DNA from: a virus
Strand: one strand, 5' to 3'
Length of the DNA: 20,843 bases
IMG/VR virus record: IMGVR_UViG_3300032086_000164
Location: 1-20,843 of that record
The notes beneath the pieces are model-generated. The model searched no databases and had not been told where the DNA came from. It was given only the letters and a program-made list of their open reading frames with translations. The number at the start of each line of letters is the position of its first letter. Position 1 is the stretch's first letter. Shown piece by piece: positions 16,955-20,843 of the stretch. Position numbers and translations under genes: made by a program.

Positions 16955-17169
16955 TAATCTACTTGTTCTCCTTCTTGATAAAATCCACGACCACCAGCTC
17001 TAGAAAATAAAGATCTAGCTCCTAGTTTCCCAGCAGCAAATCTTTTCCTTCTTTTTTCAGCAGCTTCTTCTTGTTCTTTTTTGATGCGTTCTTCTTCTTC
17101 ACGCTGTTCTTTAAGCTGCTTTTCTAGCTCTGGATCTGGTCTATATTTTGGTGGTCTTAAAAATCCCAT
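16954..17169 (-). CDS. Unknown 71-residue charged coiled-coil protein with RSLF tail
   Basis: The protein has a short hydrophobic start (MGFLRPPKYRPDPE), a highly charged helix from about 14 to 44 dominated by Glu, Lys, Gln and Arg (probable coiled coil), then RKRFAAGKLGARSLF and a Gly-rich end RAGGRGFYQEGEQVD. I know such short charged proteins near terminase and portal genes in other tailed phages but cannot name a function. It overlaps the upstream gene by 13 bases; AAGG lies about nine bases before the ATG. A shared C-terminal motif with the next protein may mean that both bind the same partner. Confidence 0.7.
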   Translation of the reverse strand: MGFLRPPKYRPDPELEKQLKEQREEEERIKKEQEEAAEKRRKRFAAGKLGARSLFSRAGGRGFYQEGEQVD

Positions 17170-17564
17170 TGTTCACAACCTTGTTTCTTTAAGTATTTAT
17201 ATAACTGATAAGGTGTAATAATCAACCTATTTATTCCTAATACTCTCATTACTACAGTAACACAAGAATGTTCTCTTAACCATGCTGCTTGAAATAATCT
17301 CCATTTATGGCGAAATGTCTTGCATTTTAAAATAACACCTTTGTTTTGAATCACGTAAGATAACATTTCATCTACTTCTGCTCCTTCTAAAATATTTAAA
17401 TCTAATCTTCTATGAATATGCTCTACCACTAACCATTTATCTTTTTTAGGATAATAAGCAAATGCTCCACAATGAGCCATGCCTTTCTTTCTAAATCTAT
17501 GATACCACTCATGGTTAGGTGGATCATAAAAGAATACTAACCATTCCTTCGGAAAATATCCCAC
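17157..17564 (-). CDS. 135-residue protein, possible permuted papain-fold (NlpC/P60-like) protein
   Basis: The order of features is GMAHCGAFAYYP (His31), then KWLVVEHIHRRLDL (Glu48), then HSCVTVVMRVLGI (Cys101) and TPYQLYKYLKK (117-126). A His before a Cys that starts a helix followed by LGI and TPYQLY is the pattern I know from circularly permuted papain-like cysteine peptidases. The catalytic assignment is an inference, and such proteins may be hydrolases, amidases or inactive. It starts with GTG at 17564: AGGAGG (17570-17575) stands five bases before, and no ATG fits. It overlaps TerL by 28 bases. It could cut peptidoglycan or peptide bonds during maturation, but it could also be structural. 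Confidence 0.65.
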   Translation of the reverse strand: MGYFPKEWLVFFYDPPNHEWYHRFRKKGMAHCGAFAYYPKKDKWLVVEHIHRRLDLNILEGAEVDEMLSYVIQNKGVILKCKTFRHKWRLFQAAWLREHSCVTVVMRVLGINRLIITPYQLYKYLKKQGCEQWDF

Positions 17565-19060
17565 TTCTTCCTCCTATTCATGGAACTACGATCAAAAATA
17601 TTCCAGTTCTTATAAGCATTAGATACTTGAGGTTTAGCTGGACCTACAGTTAATGATCTACCTTCACCAGCACCTAGCATTAAATATTGCAGTGCATCAT
17701 GTACGTGTGAAAACTTATTCTTGTTAGGTTTATCTTCATATCTTTCTCCAGAAGTTTGGATTCTTCTGTAATGATATCCACCTAAAAATCCTTTACGTAA
17801 AGACTTACAAGATCTATTCAACAAAAAGCCAGGCTTACCATCTACCATTCTATTCAATGCAGTTTCTACTGATTCTATTCTGAGTCCTACATCATTAGAT
17901 GGTGCAGGAAAGGCTTGGATGCCTTGTTGTCTAAGTATTTGAAACGGAGTTGTTTCATCTGTCTGGGCTCTAAAATCTCCAGCAGGATCTCCAAATATTT
18001 TTAAATCTTTATCAGCACAATGTTTAATAATCTCATGTTTCAATAACTCACTAAACTTAACTGTGCCTATATCAAAACAAACGAGTTCATGCAGGATTAA
18101 CCATCTACCATCTGGTAGCTTCTGACCAAATACAGCAGAAGGTGTAAGACCAAAGTCTAATCCAATGTAAACAGTAACAGGTGCAAAAGGTACTTCTTCA
18201 TCTGCTAAGTGGACATCTTCTCTAAAGGATGGATAAACTAACTTACCATCTTCTATTGTTCCTAGTTTGTTTAAAACATAAACGTCAATCCAAGACTTAG
18301 ACTTTCCTCTTATAATATTGGGATAGTAATCTGGTGTAACATTTTTAATATTTTCTGCGTCAGCATTAAGTTCATAACCTTTAATCTTATCGTTTTCTTT
18401 CTTCTCAATCATACCTGGAGGTTGTACAAAAAATTTCCAGTTGTCTGGTTTGACTAACATCACAGATTCTTCTTGGCTCATATGATCTGGCATAGGAACT
18501 TCACCAGACATAATGGACCACCAGTGATCTTCATCAGGTGCGTTGGTATCTGCTATGACACCATACCAAGTAGGTCCACCATCTTTCATTGAAGGAAATC
18601 TACCAACACGCATTGTACACGCATCCACAATAGATTTAGGAATTTCTCTTGCTTCATTGATCCATACACCAGTTAATTCTAAAGACAATAGTTTCTTAAC
18701 ATCTTCTGGTCTATCTAGTGCCAGGAAGATAACTTCTAGTTCTACATCTCCTACATGAATGTTGTGTGTGTAAGGAACTGAGTACATAAAGTTACCAAAC
18801 GAGTTTTCTGGAAACCAATCTAACCATGTCTTAATGGTCGTTGTCTTTAACTGGGGGTTGGTATTTCTAATAACTGCCCATCTAGATTTACGTTTACCAT
18901 CTGGACTAGGTTCTTGTTTTAAGGCACGTCTAAAGATTTCAATACAACAGGATACAGACTTCCCTGATCCTACTGGACCACGTAATCCTCGAAAGAAGGA
19001 ATCATCCTTCATAAAGGTTTTAACGATTGTACCTGGAGCTTTATAGTTAAGTTCTGTCAA
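17537..19060 (-). CDS. terL: Terminase large subunit (packaging ATPase and nuclease)
   Basis: This 507-residue motor cuts concatemeric DNA and pumps it through the portal. The ATPase domain shows Walker A GPVGSGKS (28-35) and a Walker-B-like segment GVWINEARE (131-139). The RNase-H-type nuclease shows an acidic first strand YIGLDFGLTPSAV (Asp302), FGDPAGDFR (Asp358) and SHVHDALQYLMLG (Asp455). NYKAPGTIVKTFMKDDSFFR before Walker A fits the family, which supports the unusual TTG start at 19060. That TTG overlaps the preceding stop as TTGA. No good Shine-Dalgarno precedes it, so translational coupling is likely. An internal ATG at codon 17 would leave only 11 residues before Walker A and is less attractive. 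Confidence 0.95.
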   Translation of the reverse strand: MTELNYKAPGTIVKTFMKDDSFFRGLRGPVGSGKSVSCCIEIFRRALKQEPSPDGKRKSRWAVIRNTNPQLKTTTIKTWLDWFPENSFGNFMYSVPYTHNIHVGDVELEVIFLALDRPEDVKKLLSLELTGVWINEAREIPKSIVDACTMRVGRFPSMKDGGPTWYGVIADTNAPDEDHWWSIMSGEVPMPDHMSQEESVMLVKPDNWKFFVQPPGMIEKKENDKIKGYELNADAENIKNVTPDYYPNIIRGKSKSWIDVYVLNKLGTIEDGKLVYPSFREDVHLADEEVPFAPVTVYIGLDFGLTPSAVFGQKLPDGRWLILHELVCFDIGTVKFSELLKHEIIKHCADKDLKIFGDPAGDFRAQTDETTPFQILRQQGIQAFPAPSNDVGLRIESVETALNRMVDGKPGFLLNRSCKSLRKGFLGGYHYRRIQTSGERYEDKPNKNKFSHVHDALQYLMLGAGEGRSLTVGPAKPQVSNAYKNWNIFDRSSMNRRKKWDIFRRNG

Positions 19061-19248
19061 GCAATACCATTATCTACAGATTTTTTAATTAACTTGTAGA
19101 TAGTTTCTGGTAGCAAGGATTCTATAAATTTATCGGCTTCATGGTCCGAGAATCTTAGATCTTTAGGATAGTGTTTGAAATGTTCCTTCTTCACTATCTT
19201 ACGAAGTCTTTGACGATCCTCGTAAGATAGCTCCTCTGCGTACCTCAT
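19057..19248 (-). CDS. Unknown 63-residue helical protein immediately before TerL
   Basis: The protein is charged and helical, with MRYAEELSYEDRQRLRKIVK at the start, then KEHFKHYPKDLRFSDHEADK and LLPETIYKLIKKSVDN. I do not recognise a family. Its position directly upstream of and overlapping terL could suggest a terminase accessory or regulatory role; the DHEADKFIESLLPET stretch resembles small phage packaging-associated proteins only in general terms. The ATG at 19248 comes two bases after the stop of the 33-residue membrane peptide. It would be translated in the same chain as terL. Confidence 0.7.
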   Translation of the reverse strand: MRYAEELSYEDRQRLRKIVKKEHFKHYPKDLRFSDHEADKFIESLLPETIYKLIKKSVDNGIA

Positions 19249-19250
19249 GT

Positions 19251-19352
19251 TTAATTAAATATTAATCCTAAGATAATTAGGACAGGAACAGCACATAAAA
19301 ATATCTTTGCATTTCTATTTAACTTGTTCCATTGTGTTTTTACCCAATCCAT
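19251..19352 (-). CDS. 33-residue single-span membrane peptide (holin- or spanin-position candidate)
   Basis: This gene is very short but clean: ATG at 19352, TAA at 19251. The N-terminus MDWVKTQWNKLNRN is polar and basic, and residues 15-32 (AKIFLCAVPVLIILGLIF) form one strong hydrophobic span with almost no C-terminal tail. The ATG shares a base with the stop of the preceding 56-residue gene (TAATG), and the next ATG follows two bases after its stop, so it fits exactly into the gene chain. GAGAG lies just before the start. In T7 the holin and Rz-type lysis genes are next to or between the terminase genes. A pinholin-like or other membrane role is possible but unproven. Confidence 0.65.
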   Translation of the reverse strand: MDWVKTQWNKLNRNAKIFLCAVPVLIILGLIFN

Positions 19353-19522
19353 TATGCTCTCGCTTTCTTTTTAGCTGTTGCTGATAGATCTTTAAAATGT
19401 ACTAAAGGTTTACTAGATGTAGTATGAGTCTTGCCTGTATGTAGTTTACCATTAGGCATTTTGTGATATGCACCAGTAAATTCTTTACCACTCTTTAAGT
19501 AATGCTTTACGCCTTTACCCAT
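19352..19522 (-). CDS. Unknown basic 56-residue protein
   Basis: The frame runs from ATG at 19522 to TAA at 19352 and shares single bases with both neighbours (TAATG on each side). The protein is rich in Lys, Gly, His and Thr: MGKGVKHYLKSGKEFTGAYH, then KMPNGKLHTGKTHTTSSKPL and a C-terminal ATAKKKARA. The Gly-Lys turns suggest a small beta hairpin followed by a basic helix. Similar mini-proteins occur in marine phage packaging regions, as far as I recall, but no function is known to me. DNA or RNA binding is suggested only by charge. Confidence 0.65.
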   Translation of the reverse strand: MGKGVKHYLKSGKEFTGAYHKMPNGKLHTGKTHTTSSKPLVHFKDLSATAKKKARA

Positions 19523-19632
19523 TACTTCTTCTTCTTACTAGCCATAATCTTTTTCTTCAAAGCAGGTGGTAATTTATTTTGTTTACCTTTTAACTTTTTA
19601 GATCCAGCGGCAGGTTTTTTCATTCCATACAT
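19522..19632 (-). CDS. Unknown very basic 36-residue protein
   Basis: This tiny gene starts with ATG at 19632 (MYGMKKPAAGSKKLKGKQNK) and ends with KKKIMASKKKK before TAA. About 40 percent of the residues are Lys. A strong AGGAGG lies eight bases before the first ATG, which favours it over the in-frame ATG three codons later, and supports real translation despite the short length. Both ends are fused to neighbours through TAATG overlaps. No family recognised; the charge suggests nucleic-acid binding. Confidence 0.6.
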   Translation of the reverse strand: MYGMKKPAAGSKKLKGKQNKLPPALKKKIMASKKKK

Positions 19633-19874
19633 TATGATACCCTCCTAAACGGTTTTGTTTTAGCGGCAATAGACTTAGGTTGTTTGACAAATTGTTTCCC
19701 ACTCTTACTGCCTTTTCTCTTAGCTCTAGTTGTAGCTGCATATTCACTAGCAGTCAATGACTTGATCGCAGCTTCTGGTAAGTAGCGTTCACCAGTTTTA
19801 GAGGATGGCTTTCCAGATTTGGTTCTCCATTTCTGTTTAGTCCATGCCTTTAAACTTCTTTGTGGCTTCTTCAT
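19632..19874 (-). CDS. Basic 80-residue protein, probably DUF5872-type
   Basis: The sequence KSLKAWTKQKWRTKSGKPS type core (here SLKAWTKQKWRTKSGKPSSK), GERYLPEAAIKSLTASEYAA and a basic end KSIAAKTKPFRRVS match, to my memory, the DUF5872 family of small basic proteins seen in marine viruses and giant viruses. Its function is unknown. A Trp-rich basic N-terminus and Lys/Arg clusters throughout suggest binding to nucleic acid. The ATG at 19874 overlaps the stop of the previous gene as ATGA. I trust the gene call more than the family name. Confidence 0.75.
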   Translation of the reverse strand: MKKPQRSLKAWTKQKWRTKSGKPSSKTGERYLPEAAIKSLTASEYAATTRAKRKGSKSGKQFVKQPKSIAAKTKPFRRVS

Positions 19875-20041
19875 CGATAGCCACCACCCTTTGCTTTATA
19901 TTGTTTCGCTAACATCTGAGCCTTTCTAGCAGACCACTGTCCAGGCTTTCCTCCTTTACCTCCAGCTTTAATTCGCTGAAATAAACTCTTTCTCATTCCA
20001 GGCTTCGTATAATTACCTGCTTGATTAACTTTACTTACCAT
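19871..20041 (-). CDS. Basic 56-residue protein with GQWSARKAQ motif
   Basis: The frame begins with ATG at 20041 inside the end of the preceding gene (seven-base overlap) and ends with TGA at 19871. The product starts MVSKVNQAGNYTKPGMRKSL, continues with IKAGGKGGKPGQWSARKAQM and ends LAKQYKAKGGGYR. I recall near-identical short proteins in many uncultured marine phages, where the NYTKP, GQWSARKAQ and KGGGY motifs are kept. The function is unknown; it is probably a small helix-rich nucleic-acid-associated protein. Conservation of three motifs in so short a protein argues for a real gene. Confidence 0.75.
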   Translation of the reverse strand: MVSKVNQAGNYTKPGMRKSLFQRIKAGGKGGKPGQWSARKAQMLAKQYKAKGGGYR

Positions 20042-20316
20042 TTTGATTTATTTGCCCAAAACGCAGCTGACATTTTTCCTTTGGCTATATTCTTTCTATG
20101 TCTTGCCTTAAAAGATTTTCTTTTCATCTTCATTTTTTTTGACTCTCCTGCTTTGGGTTTACCTGCTGTACTAGCACCCTGTTCTCCATATCGAATCGTC
20201 TTGATCTTATCTCCTTCTTTAGCCACGACCACATGAGATTTAGTTGGATGTCCAGGGGTACGTTTAGGTTTGTTATATCCAGATACACCTATCCTTTTTA
20301 ATAAACTCTTAGACAT
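20035..20316 (-). CDS. Basic 93-residue protein, probably DUF6321-type
   Basis: The product begins MSKSLLKRIGVSGYNKPKRT, followed by PGHPTKSHVVVAKEGDKIKT, IRYGEQGASTAGKPKAGESK and a C-terminal KSFKARHRKNIAKGKMSAAF ending in WANKSKW. To my memory this matches the DUF6321 family, widespread in marine phage genomes and of unknown function. The central part looks like a small beta domain (SHVVVAKEGDKIKTIRYG); the tail is Arg/Lys-rich with a conserved FKARHxKNI pattern. The ATG at 20316 lacks a clear Shine-Dalgarno; a nine-T tract stands about 13-21 bases upstream on the coding strand. Confidence 0.75.
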   Translation of the reverse strand: MSKSLLKRIGVSGYNKPKRTPGHPTKSHVVVAKEGDKIKTIRYGEQGASTAGKPKAGESKKMKMKRKSFKARHRKNIAKGKMSAAFWANKSKW

Positions 20317-20346: not shown

Positions 20347-20583
20347 TCAACGCTGTTTGTAATGTTCACCACAGAGGAAATAATAACTTCCTATCTCGTT
20401 CTTAACATGAAACGGAGCGAAATCTCCACACTCTCGGCAACGACAATACTTAACGTGTTCTTTGTGTGTCCATCTTAATATCTGTAACTGATTGTAACAC
20501 GGACCTTTTTCGCCTATGTTGTGTGTAGAGGACTTTTTCCTCTGCTGTCGCTCCTGTTTTCTAACCCCCCCTCCTTCAATCAA
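20347..20583 (-). CDS. Small probable zinc-binding protein
   Basis: The frame gives 78 residues from a TTG at 20583, overlapping the terminase small subunit stop by eight bases. The C-terminal half contains Cys49-x2-Cys52 and, 18 residues on, Cys71-x2-His74, with extra Cys47 and His59: a four-ligand zinc-knuckle layout. The N-terminus is basic and Gln-rich (RKQERQQRKKSS). The start is uncertain: no ATG, GTG or other TTG suits the strong AAGGAGG at 20572-20578, which falls inside this frame right before a G7 tract. The true N-terminus could lie elsewhere. Zinc binding and a role in DNA binding or regulation are inferred from the motif only. Confidence 0.6.
   Translation of the reverse strand: MIEGGGVRKQERQQRKKSSTHNIGEKGPCYNQLQILRWTHKEHVKYCRCRECGDFAPFHVKNEIGSYYFLCGEHYKQR
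20565..20578 (-). promoter_or_regulatory. Strong Shine-Dalgarno (AAGGAGG) with G7 run but no start codon at the normal distance
   Basis: On the coding strand TGAAGGAGGGGGGGTTAG follows the end of the terminase small subunit. The AAGGAGG is a full consensus match, yet no ATG, GTG or TTG lies 4-12 bases downstream. The seven-G run is also an easy site for sequence error or slippage. It may act through termination-reinitiation at the overlapping TTG, or mark an error in the sequence. Confidence 0.45.
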
Positions 20584-20843
20584 GGTCTATCTTGATGGAA
20601 AGATTTCCACCCACTTGGTGTTGTACCTTATCAGGAGCTTTAAACCCACTCCTATCAAGGATATCTTTACTGGCTTCTAGCTTCACGTAATCGGACTTCG
20701 CATCCTGTGCAAGTCTAACGATTGTCTTGACTGCTGGGATTGCACCTATCAATCCTATCTCAGCTACACGTGAACGGTAGTACTCTTGTACCTTTGGGAG
20801 ACGTAATGTCCTTGAAGCTGTTACTCTACCACTTTCTCCCTTT
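20576..20843 (-). CDS. terS: Terminase small subunit, C-terminal part (cut by the right window edge)
   Basis: The last 88 codons are visible, ending in TGA at 20576; the start lies outside the window. The product includes RTLRLPKVQEYYRSRVAEIG, AVKTIVRLAQDAKSDYVKLE and ASKDILDRSGFKAPDKVQ, then ends in GGNLSIKIDLD. The pattern of a helix carrying VKLEASKDILDRSGFKAPDK followed by a short polar beta tail is common at the C-terminus of small terminase subunits, which recognise phage DNA and recruit TerL. The N-terminal helix-turn-helix cannot be seen. Its location upstream of terL supports the call. This end of the window is richer in GC (27 of 60 in line 20701-20760) than the ejection genes. Confidence 0.75.
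   Translation of the reverse strand, partial: KGESGRVTASRTLRLPKVQEYYRSRVAEIGLIGAIPAVKTIVRLAQDAKSDYVKLEASKDILDRSGFKAPDKVQHQVGGNLSIKIDLD

Follow-up and report, generated by a model that had tools for sequence, protein, structure and literature searches.

Analysis of the interval between the genes for the small (TerS) and large (TerL) terminase subunits of an IMG/VR virus record revealed a chain of six short, overlapping genes (g1 to g6). Their products are best explained, with a probability of about 0.45, as late nucleic-acid-binding accessory proteins that would act on the DNA as it is packaged or once it is in the head. Nucleic-acid binding is suggested by the charge of the proteins and by the extra domains of their cellular relatives, and action on packaged DNA by the gene neighborhood and by fusions of the g1 domain. 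We infer that the proteins may condense DNA and may be present in the virion.

The window, i.e., the whole stretch of DNA analyzed, is the 20,843-base record, in which podovirus-like late genes lie on the minus strand. On this strand, the window end cuts the TerS gene, of which the C-terminal part remains (20576..20842; phrog_2538, 6.3e-11), and TerL is encoded at 17537..19060 (phrog_2, 8.6e-21). The chain between them consists of g1 (20035..20316; 93 amino acids [aa], pI 11.1; phrog_7595, 5.8e-41), g2 (19871..20041; 56 aa, pI 11.3; phrog_17747, 1.7e-32), g3 (19632..19874; 80 aa, pI 11.5; phrog_14910, 2.3e-36), g4 (19522..19632; 36 aa, pI 10.8; 52 homologues), g5 (19352..19522; 56 aa, pI 10.4; found repeatedly in marine phages), and g6 (19251..19352; a 33-aa peptide with one hydrophobic segment; 42 homologues). 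Successive genes overlap by 7, 4, 1, 1, and 1 bases. The initial annotation had described six genes for 93, 56, 80, 36, 56, and 33 residues with overlaps of 1 to 7 bases, and coordinates and lengths agree with this description. Its division into five strongly basic proteins and one membrane peptide also holds, with pI values of 10.4 to 11.5 and net charges of +11 to +23 for g1 to g5 and a hydrophobic g6. The six genes are present as described, but the interval holds eight genes when Zn78 and g7 are counted. Zn78 (20347..20583, minus strand), placed between TerS and g1, starts with TTG, encodes a Cys-containing protein of 78 aa, and has 16 homologous open reading frames (ORFs); family-profile searches gave no confident match for it. 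The C-terminal half of the protein is Cys rich, and some members of the close clade retain the gene. The 63-aa g7 (19057..19248, minus strand), which had no family match, is positioned directly upstream of TerL, overlaps it by 4 bases, and is conserved as strongly as TerL. Its position is kept across the TerL clade, and it lies within 10 bases of TerL in 71 of 80 TerL-seeded loci, counted among the best-scoring loci. The product of g7 is possibly a terminase partner. Elsewhere in the window, a gene for 135 aa (17157-17564) overlaps the 3' end of TerL by 28 bases and evolves faster than its neighbors (dN/dS, 0.28), and an 848-aa tail-fiber-like protein (32-2578) contains a long run of SATNAATSETNA-type repeats.

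Selection on the short frames was analyzed in a close clade (TerL identity of 86% or more). The medians of the pairwise dN/dS values were 0.07, 0.10, 0.15, 0.06, 0.23, and 0.32 for g1 to g6, respectively, compared to 0.08 for TerL, 0.13 for the portal gene, and 0.07 for g7. The initial annotation had named dN/dS below 1 as support for a functional cassette and neutral codon evolution as evidence against it; medians of 0.06 to 0.32 bear out the former, and neutral evolution was not found. In a six-frame control with pooled pN/pS, the sense frame gave the minimum for all six genes, and the shifted sense frames gave 0.8 to 1.95. One antisense frame was likewise below 1 (0.20 to 0.69), as predicted, because wobble positions align, and the ratio is therefore strong but not stand-alone proof of coding. 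It is backed by conserved length, start/stop coupling, and homologues; orthologues of g1 to g6 occur in the same order in many independent IMG/VR contigs. These results indicate that g1 to g6 are real genes. That they are spurious or neutral short ORFs might be suspected since the frames are short, of low complexity, and lysine rich, and several lack a family match. Given the low dN/dS values, the kept order and overlaps, and homologues across hundreds of contigs, we regard this explanation as extremely improbable.

Comparison of gene order revealed a cassette that is stable among close relatives and is shuffled elsewhere. Members of the close clade retain the order TerS-(Zn78)-g1-g2-g3-g4-g5-g6-g7-TerL together with the overlaps, apart from some replacements. 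In four contigs (L011, L013, L089, and L092), the g4-g5 slot is occupied by an unrelated basic peptide (MPNVGKKKYPYTKAGM..., phrog_33179). The slot is thus interchangeable, which is new here. In the wider TerL clade (65 to 69% identity), the stable core is g2-g3-g7-TerL. Among the best-scoring loci, g3 lies within 1 kb of TerL in 57 of 80 TerL-seeded loci, and g2 lies on the same strand within 1 kb of g3 in 59 of 78 g3-seeded loci; the loci are the best-scoring matches listed, so these frequencies are not unbiased. In unrelated phages, the orders g2-g3-g1, g1-g2-g3, g3-g5-g1, g2-g5-g3, and g3-g6 were found, the last with g6 adjoining g3 in L172-L174, L179, and L185. In some unrelated phages, g5 is placed behind the major capsid protein (MCP) gene, and it lies within 600 bases of this gene in seven loci. 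The expectation that the set stays together in the TerS-TerL interval was confirmed for its own TerL clade, but not for other phages. A model in which the six genes form a single fixed unit was dropped, as the modules elsewhere are separated, re-ordered, fused, or replaced. In one contig (L193, 3633-4130), a 165-aa protein opens with a further small basic module of phages, phrog_2423 (MPLKKGSSSKVVSSNI...), and has a g2 domain at its C terminus.

The neighborhood was surveyed with 141 long ORFs beside the modules in unrelated phage loci, which were assigned to PHROG families. The commonest named neighbors were terminase large subunit, portal, holin, endolysin, tail, head-tail adaptor, and head families. 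The modules keep mostly to late morphogenesis and lysis regions, and random scattering, which the initial annotation had named as evidence against a functional unit, was therefore not observed. The head and packaging neighborhood is also consistent with the earlier designation as a late cassette. The recurrence of motifs of three of the proteins in marine viruses had been proposed; g1, g2, g3, and additionally g5 are recurrent marine-virus families, to which the family libraries assign no function, as had been suspected. Collection scans for g1, g3, and g5 yielded at least about 600 matching stretches each.

Comparison of g2 and g3 with longer homologues revealed that the two proteins correspond to the N-terminal and C-terminal halves, respectively, of a DUF5872-type protein. 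This assignment of the pair as a split protein with fused forms in phages, made here for the first time, is based on sequence homology. Both halves are encoded in a single frame in 17 viral ORFs. Among these is one from Pelagibacter phage EXVC031P Hodr (OQ414635), the nearest named phage, in which a fused g2+g3 gene (132 aa) is followed by g7 and TerL; the order is the same as in the window, but g2 and g3 are fused rather than split, and g1, g5, and g6 were not found in Hodr with the profiles used. A fusion of g3 and g1 in one ORF was detected in L135. A further fusion, of the g1 start with g2 (82 aa, L026), was left out, as it may have arisen by natural deletion or through misassembly. With the DUF5872 profile (PF19197), a fused viral homologue scored 3.5e-5 and 24.8 bits, which is below the curated cutoff of 27.5 bits, and one cellular homologue scored 28.9 bits, which is above it. 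The g2 and g3 proteins of the window, taken singly, gave no match to this profile; both halves are present and linked by the 4-base overlap. DUF5872 comprises cellular and algal giant-virus proteins. The fused viral forms align end to end with the cellular ones, mostly at 54 to 63% identity, and share the GxWSARKAQ and RYLP motifs with them. Two trees of g2+g3 were calculated, one from all columns and one from the columns common to split and fused states. In both trees, every split row fell into one well-supported group (100/99 and 99/99) adjoining the fused viral forms, and this group included one or two fused rows. Under midpoint rooting of a short alignment, the simplest reading is that g2/g3 was split once in phages, with rare re-fusion. 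The structural model of the fused protein (pLDDT 87, pTM 0.52) predicted short helices around a GKGGxxGQWSARKAQ loop and had no significant match in a PDB fold search.

A genome scan identified 435 stretches encoding g2+g3 relatives, of which the best 80 were analyzed in detail. These 80 came mainly from Sphingomonas, Roseomonas, Methylobacterium, Aureimonas, Azospirillum, Pseudomonas, and Stutzerimonas. The cellular relatives mostly comprise 163 to 178 aa and end in a Rho_N/SAP-like segment. Rho_N was matched in 51 of 72 cellular homologues (best, 3e-7), with individual scores below the curated cutoff among the matches listed, and SAP was matched in 8 of 72 (best, 0.012); DUF3140 was found in 3 of the 72 and the histone-H1-like domain HC2 in 1. 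Long H1-like tails of 90 to 370 residues, rich in lysine, alanine, and proline, were recognized by composition in 9 of the 80. Both the Rho_N scores and the H1-like tails are partly compositional. With these additional parts, the cellular relatives look like nucleoid-associated proteins. In contrast, the window pair is split into overlapping genes within a phage packaging operon, and g3 ends right after the shared core, without a Rho_N/SAP-like domain, H1-like tail, or DUF3140 part. The genome matches L334-L337 also lack these extra parts, and in at least one of them, L335, the gene for the fused protein overlaps that of an SU10-type adaptor; for these reasons, the four matches are probably viral. 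The proposal that cellular DUF5872 genes always lie beside one stress gene was dropped, since the neighbors vary, with the exception of DUF3140, which is adjacent or fused in a few genomes. Fusions of cellular DUF5872-type proteins with DUF3140-like parts occur in L358, L380, L387, L398, and L401, some with very long H1-like tails, and DUF3140 is encoded by the adjacent gene in a Pseudomonas sequence (L392). DUF5872 relatives on Phaeobacter inhibens plasmids are labeled aspartate-semialdehyde dehydrogenase in many records, which is probably a propagated misannotation.

By profile comparison, we recognized for the first time that the g1 protein matches a domain built into XkdF-type prohead proteases and into a portal-MuF protein. 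Window g1 itself gave a partial match to phrog_220 (minor head protein and DNA pilot; 6.9e-6) and a match to phrog_9979 (0.0016). A hidden Markov model (HMM) built from 22 g1 proteins matched residues 182 to 261 of ICP1 gp125 (1e-17), residues 70 to 150 of Aeromonas phage 2L372X gp101 (4e-23), and residues 534 to 604 of the 1393-aa portal protein of Aphanizomenon phage CL131 (9e-17), with E-values calculated for a five-sequence target set. ICP1 gp125 and Aeromonas gp101 contain Peptidase_S78_2, and the CL131 portal protein contains Phage_portal_3, InPase, and Phage_Mu_F domains. The protease fusion is also present in two environmental contigs (L418 and L419). In contrast to these multidomain proteins, g1 is a free protein corresponding to the isolated domain, and a Pfam search of window g1 gave no match to the Peptidase_S78_2 protease domain. 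The AlphaFold2 model of g1 was confident (pLDDT 87.5, pTM 0.75). In BFVD, it matched ICP1 ORF125 (E = 1.4e-3), an XkdF-like protein, a 1393-residue protein of the same length as the CL131 portal, and, more weakly, a Tunisvirus protein; a PDB fold search gave no significant match. The CL131 portal (ORF012) was among 23 proteins detected by LC-MS/MS in purified virions (PMC6293099), so that one virion protein contains the g1 domain, albeit in fused form rather than as the free protein. No virion mass-spectrometry detection of g1-g6 homologues was found in the literature on HMO-2011, roseophages, cobaviruses, OM43 phages, and ICP1.

Other searches with the window proteins gave no significant match for g1 to g6 in Pfam and NCBIfam, including the models of HU, H-NS, and other nucleoid proteins. 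When solved structures were searched by sequence, neither g1 nor fused g2+g3 had a match, although either may still have a known fold. For g4, g5, and g6, homology gave no hint of a function. Phage internal basic proteins and the chlamydial and AlgP H1-like proteins are small, strongly basic, proposed binders of packaged or nucleoid DNA; the cassette proteins match them neither in sequence nor in fold.

The same evidence was weighed for other roles. Rather than being packaged, the split DUF5872 pair might mimic a host nucleoid protein and remodel or displace the nucleoid, RNA polymerase, or ribosomes late in infection. Such mimicry is plausible since DUF5872 homologues of alphaproteobacteria and pseudomonads carry Rho_N/SAP or H1-like parts, and the modules resemble accessory host-interaction genes in being shuffled and exchangeable. 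Their mostly packaging, head, tail, and lysis neighbors are unlike those of typical early take-over genes, however, and the fusion of the g1 domain to head proteins also argues against host take-over, which we consider rather unlikely. A role in head assembly appears to be just as doubtful. Here, capsid, scaffold, or portal protein would be the binding target of the g1 domain, its basic partners would serve as minor or scaffold-like components, and DNA binding would be incidental. The position of the g1 domain N- or C-terminal to prohead protease domains and inside a portal-MuF protein, the fold match of g1 to the ICP1 protease protein, and the location of g5 near MCP in seven loci point in this direction; the strong basic charge of the cassette proteins does not, nor do the cellular g2+g3 relatives, which have no capsid link and carry nucleic-acid-binding-like domains.

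Binding to another polyanion, namely RNA, the ribosome, or polyphosphate, is a distinctly less probable role. Rho_N-type domains can bind RNA. The H1-like bacterial protein AlgP is reported to act on polyphosphate granules (PMC9239181). Against this role, the neighborhoods and fusions examined show no link to RNA or polyphosphate metabolism.

Under the preferred reading of late nucleic-acid binding at packaging, g2/g3 would bind nucleic acid via lysine/arginine-rich helices, would coat or condense phage DNA while packaging proceeds, and might remain with the packaged DNA in the head. As a stand-alone copy of the protease/portal domain, g1 would act at the inner head or on DNA there, although in proteases and portals the domain could be a protein-binding module. 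Translation of the cassette genes would be coupled by the start/stop codon overlaps; g4 and g5 would be further basic modules of the same kind, and g6 may place something at the membrane. The absence from the phage proteins of the Rho_N/SAP part of the cellular relatives argues against this reading, and with lysis genes among the neighbors, "late" does not mean "virion." The initial annotation had suggested DNA condensation, modification of the host nucleoid or ribosomes, or travel in the virion. The DNA-related and the virion-related readings both appear to gain homology support, from DUF5872 with Rho_N/SAP or H1-like tails and from the g1 domain, respectively, and the condensation proposal may thus be raised from plausible to homology supported.

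A more speculative extension, to which we give perhaps one chance in a few, is a horizontally shuffled "phage chromatin" kit of marine tailed phages, in which g2/g3, g1, and exchangeable basic peptides would jointly coat the genome while it is packaged and leave with it. In such a kit, g2/g3 would be a once-split bacterial nucleoid-type protein and g1 a head-interior domain.

The g1, g3, and g5 families are common but uncharacterized genes of marine phages. The links to DUF5872 and to head proteins give them a first testable role, which extends to cellular DUF5872. Textbook packaging models describe bare DNA neutralized by cations and polyamines. If the proposed role holds, many ocean phages would routinely employ small basic proteins when they package their DNA.
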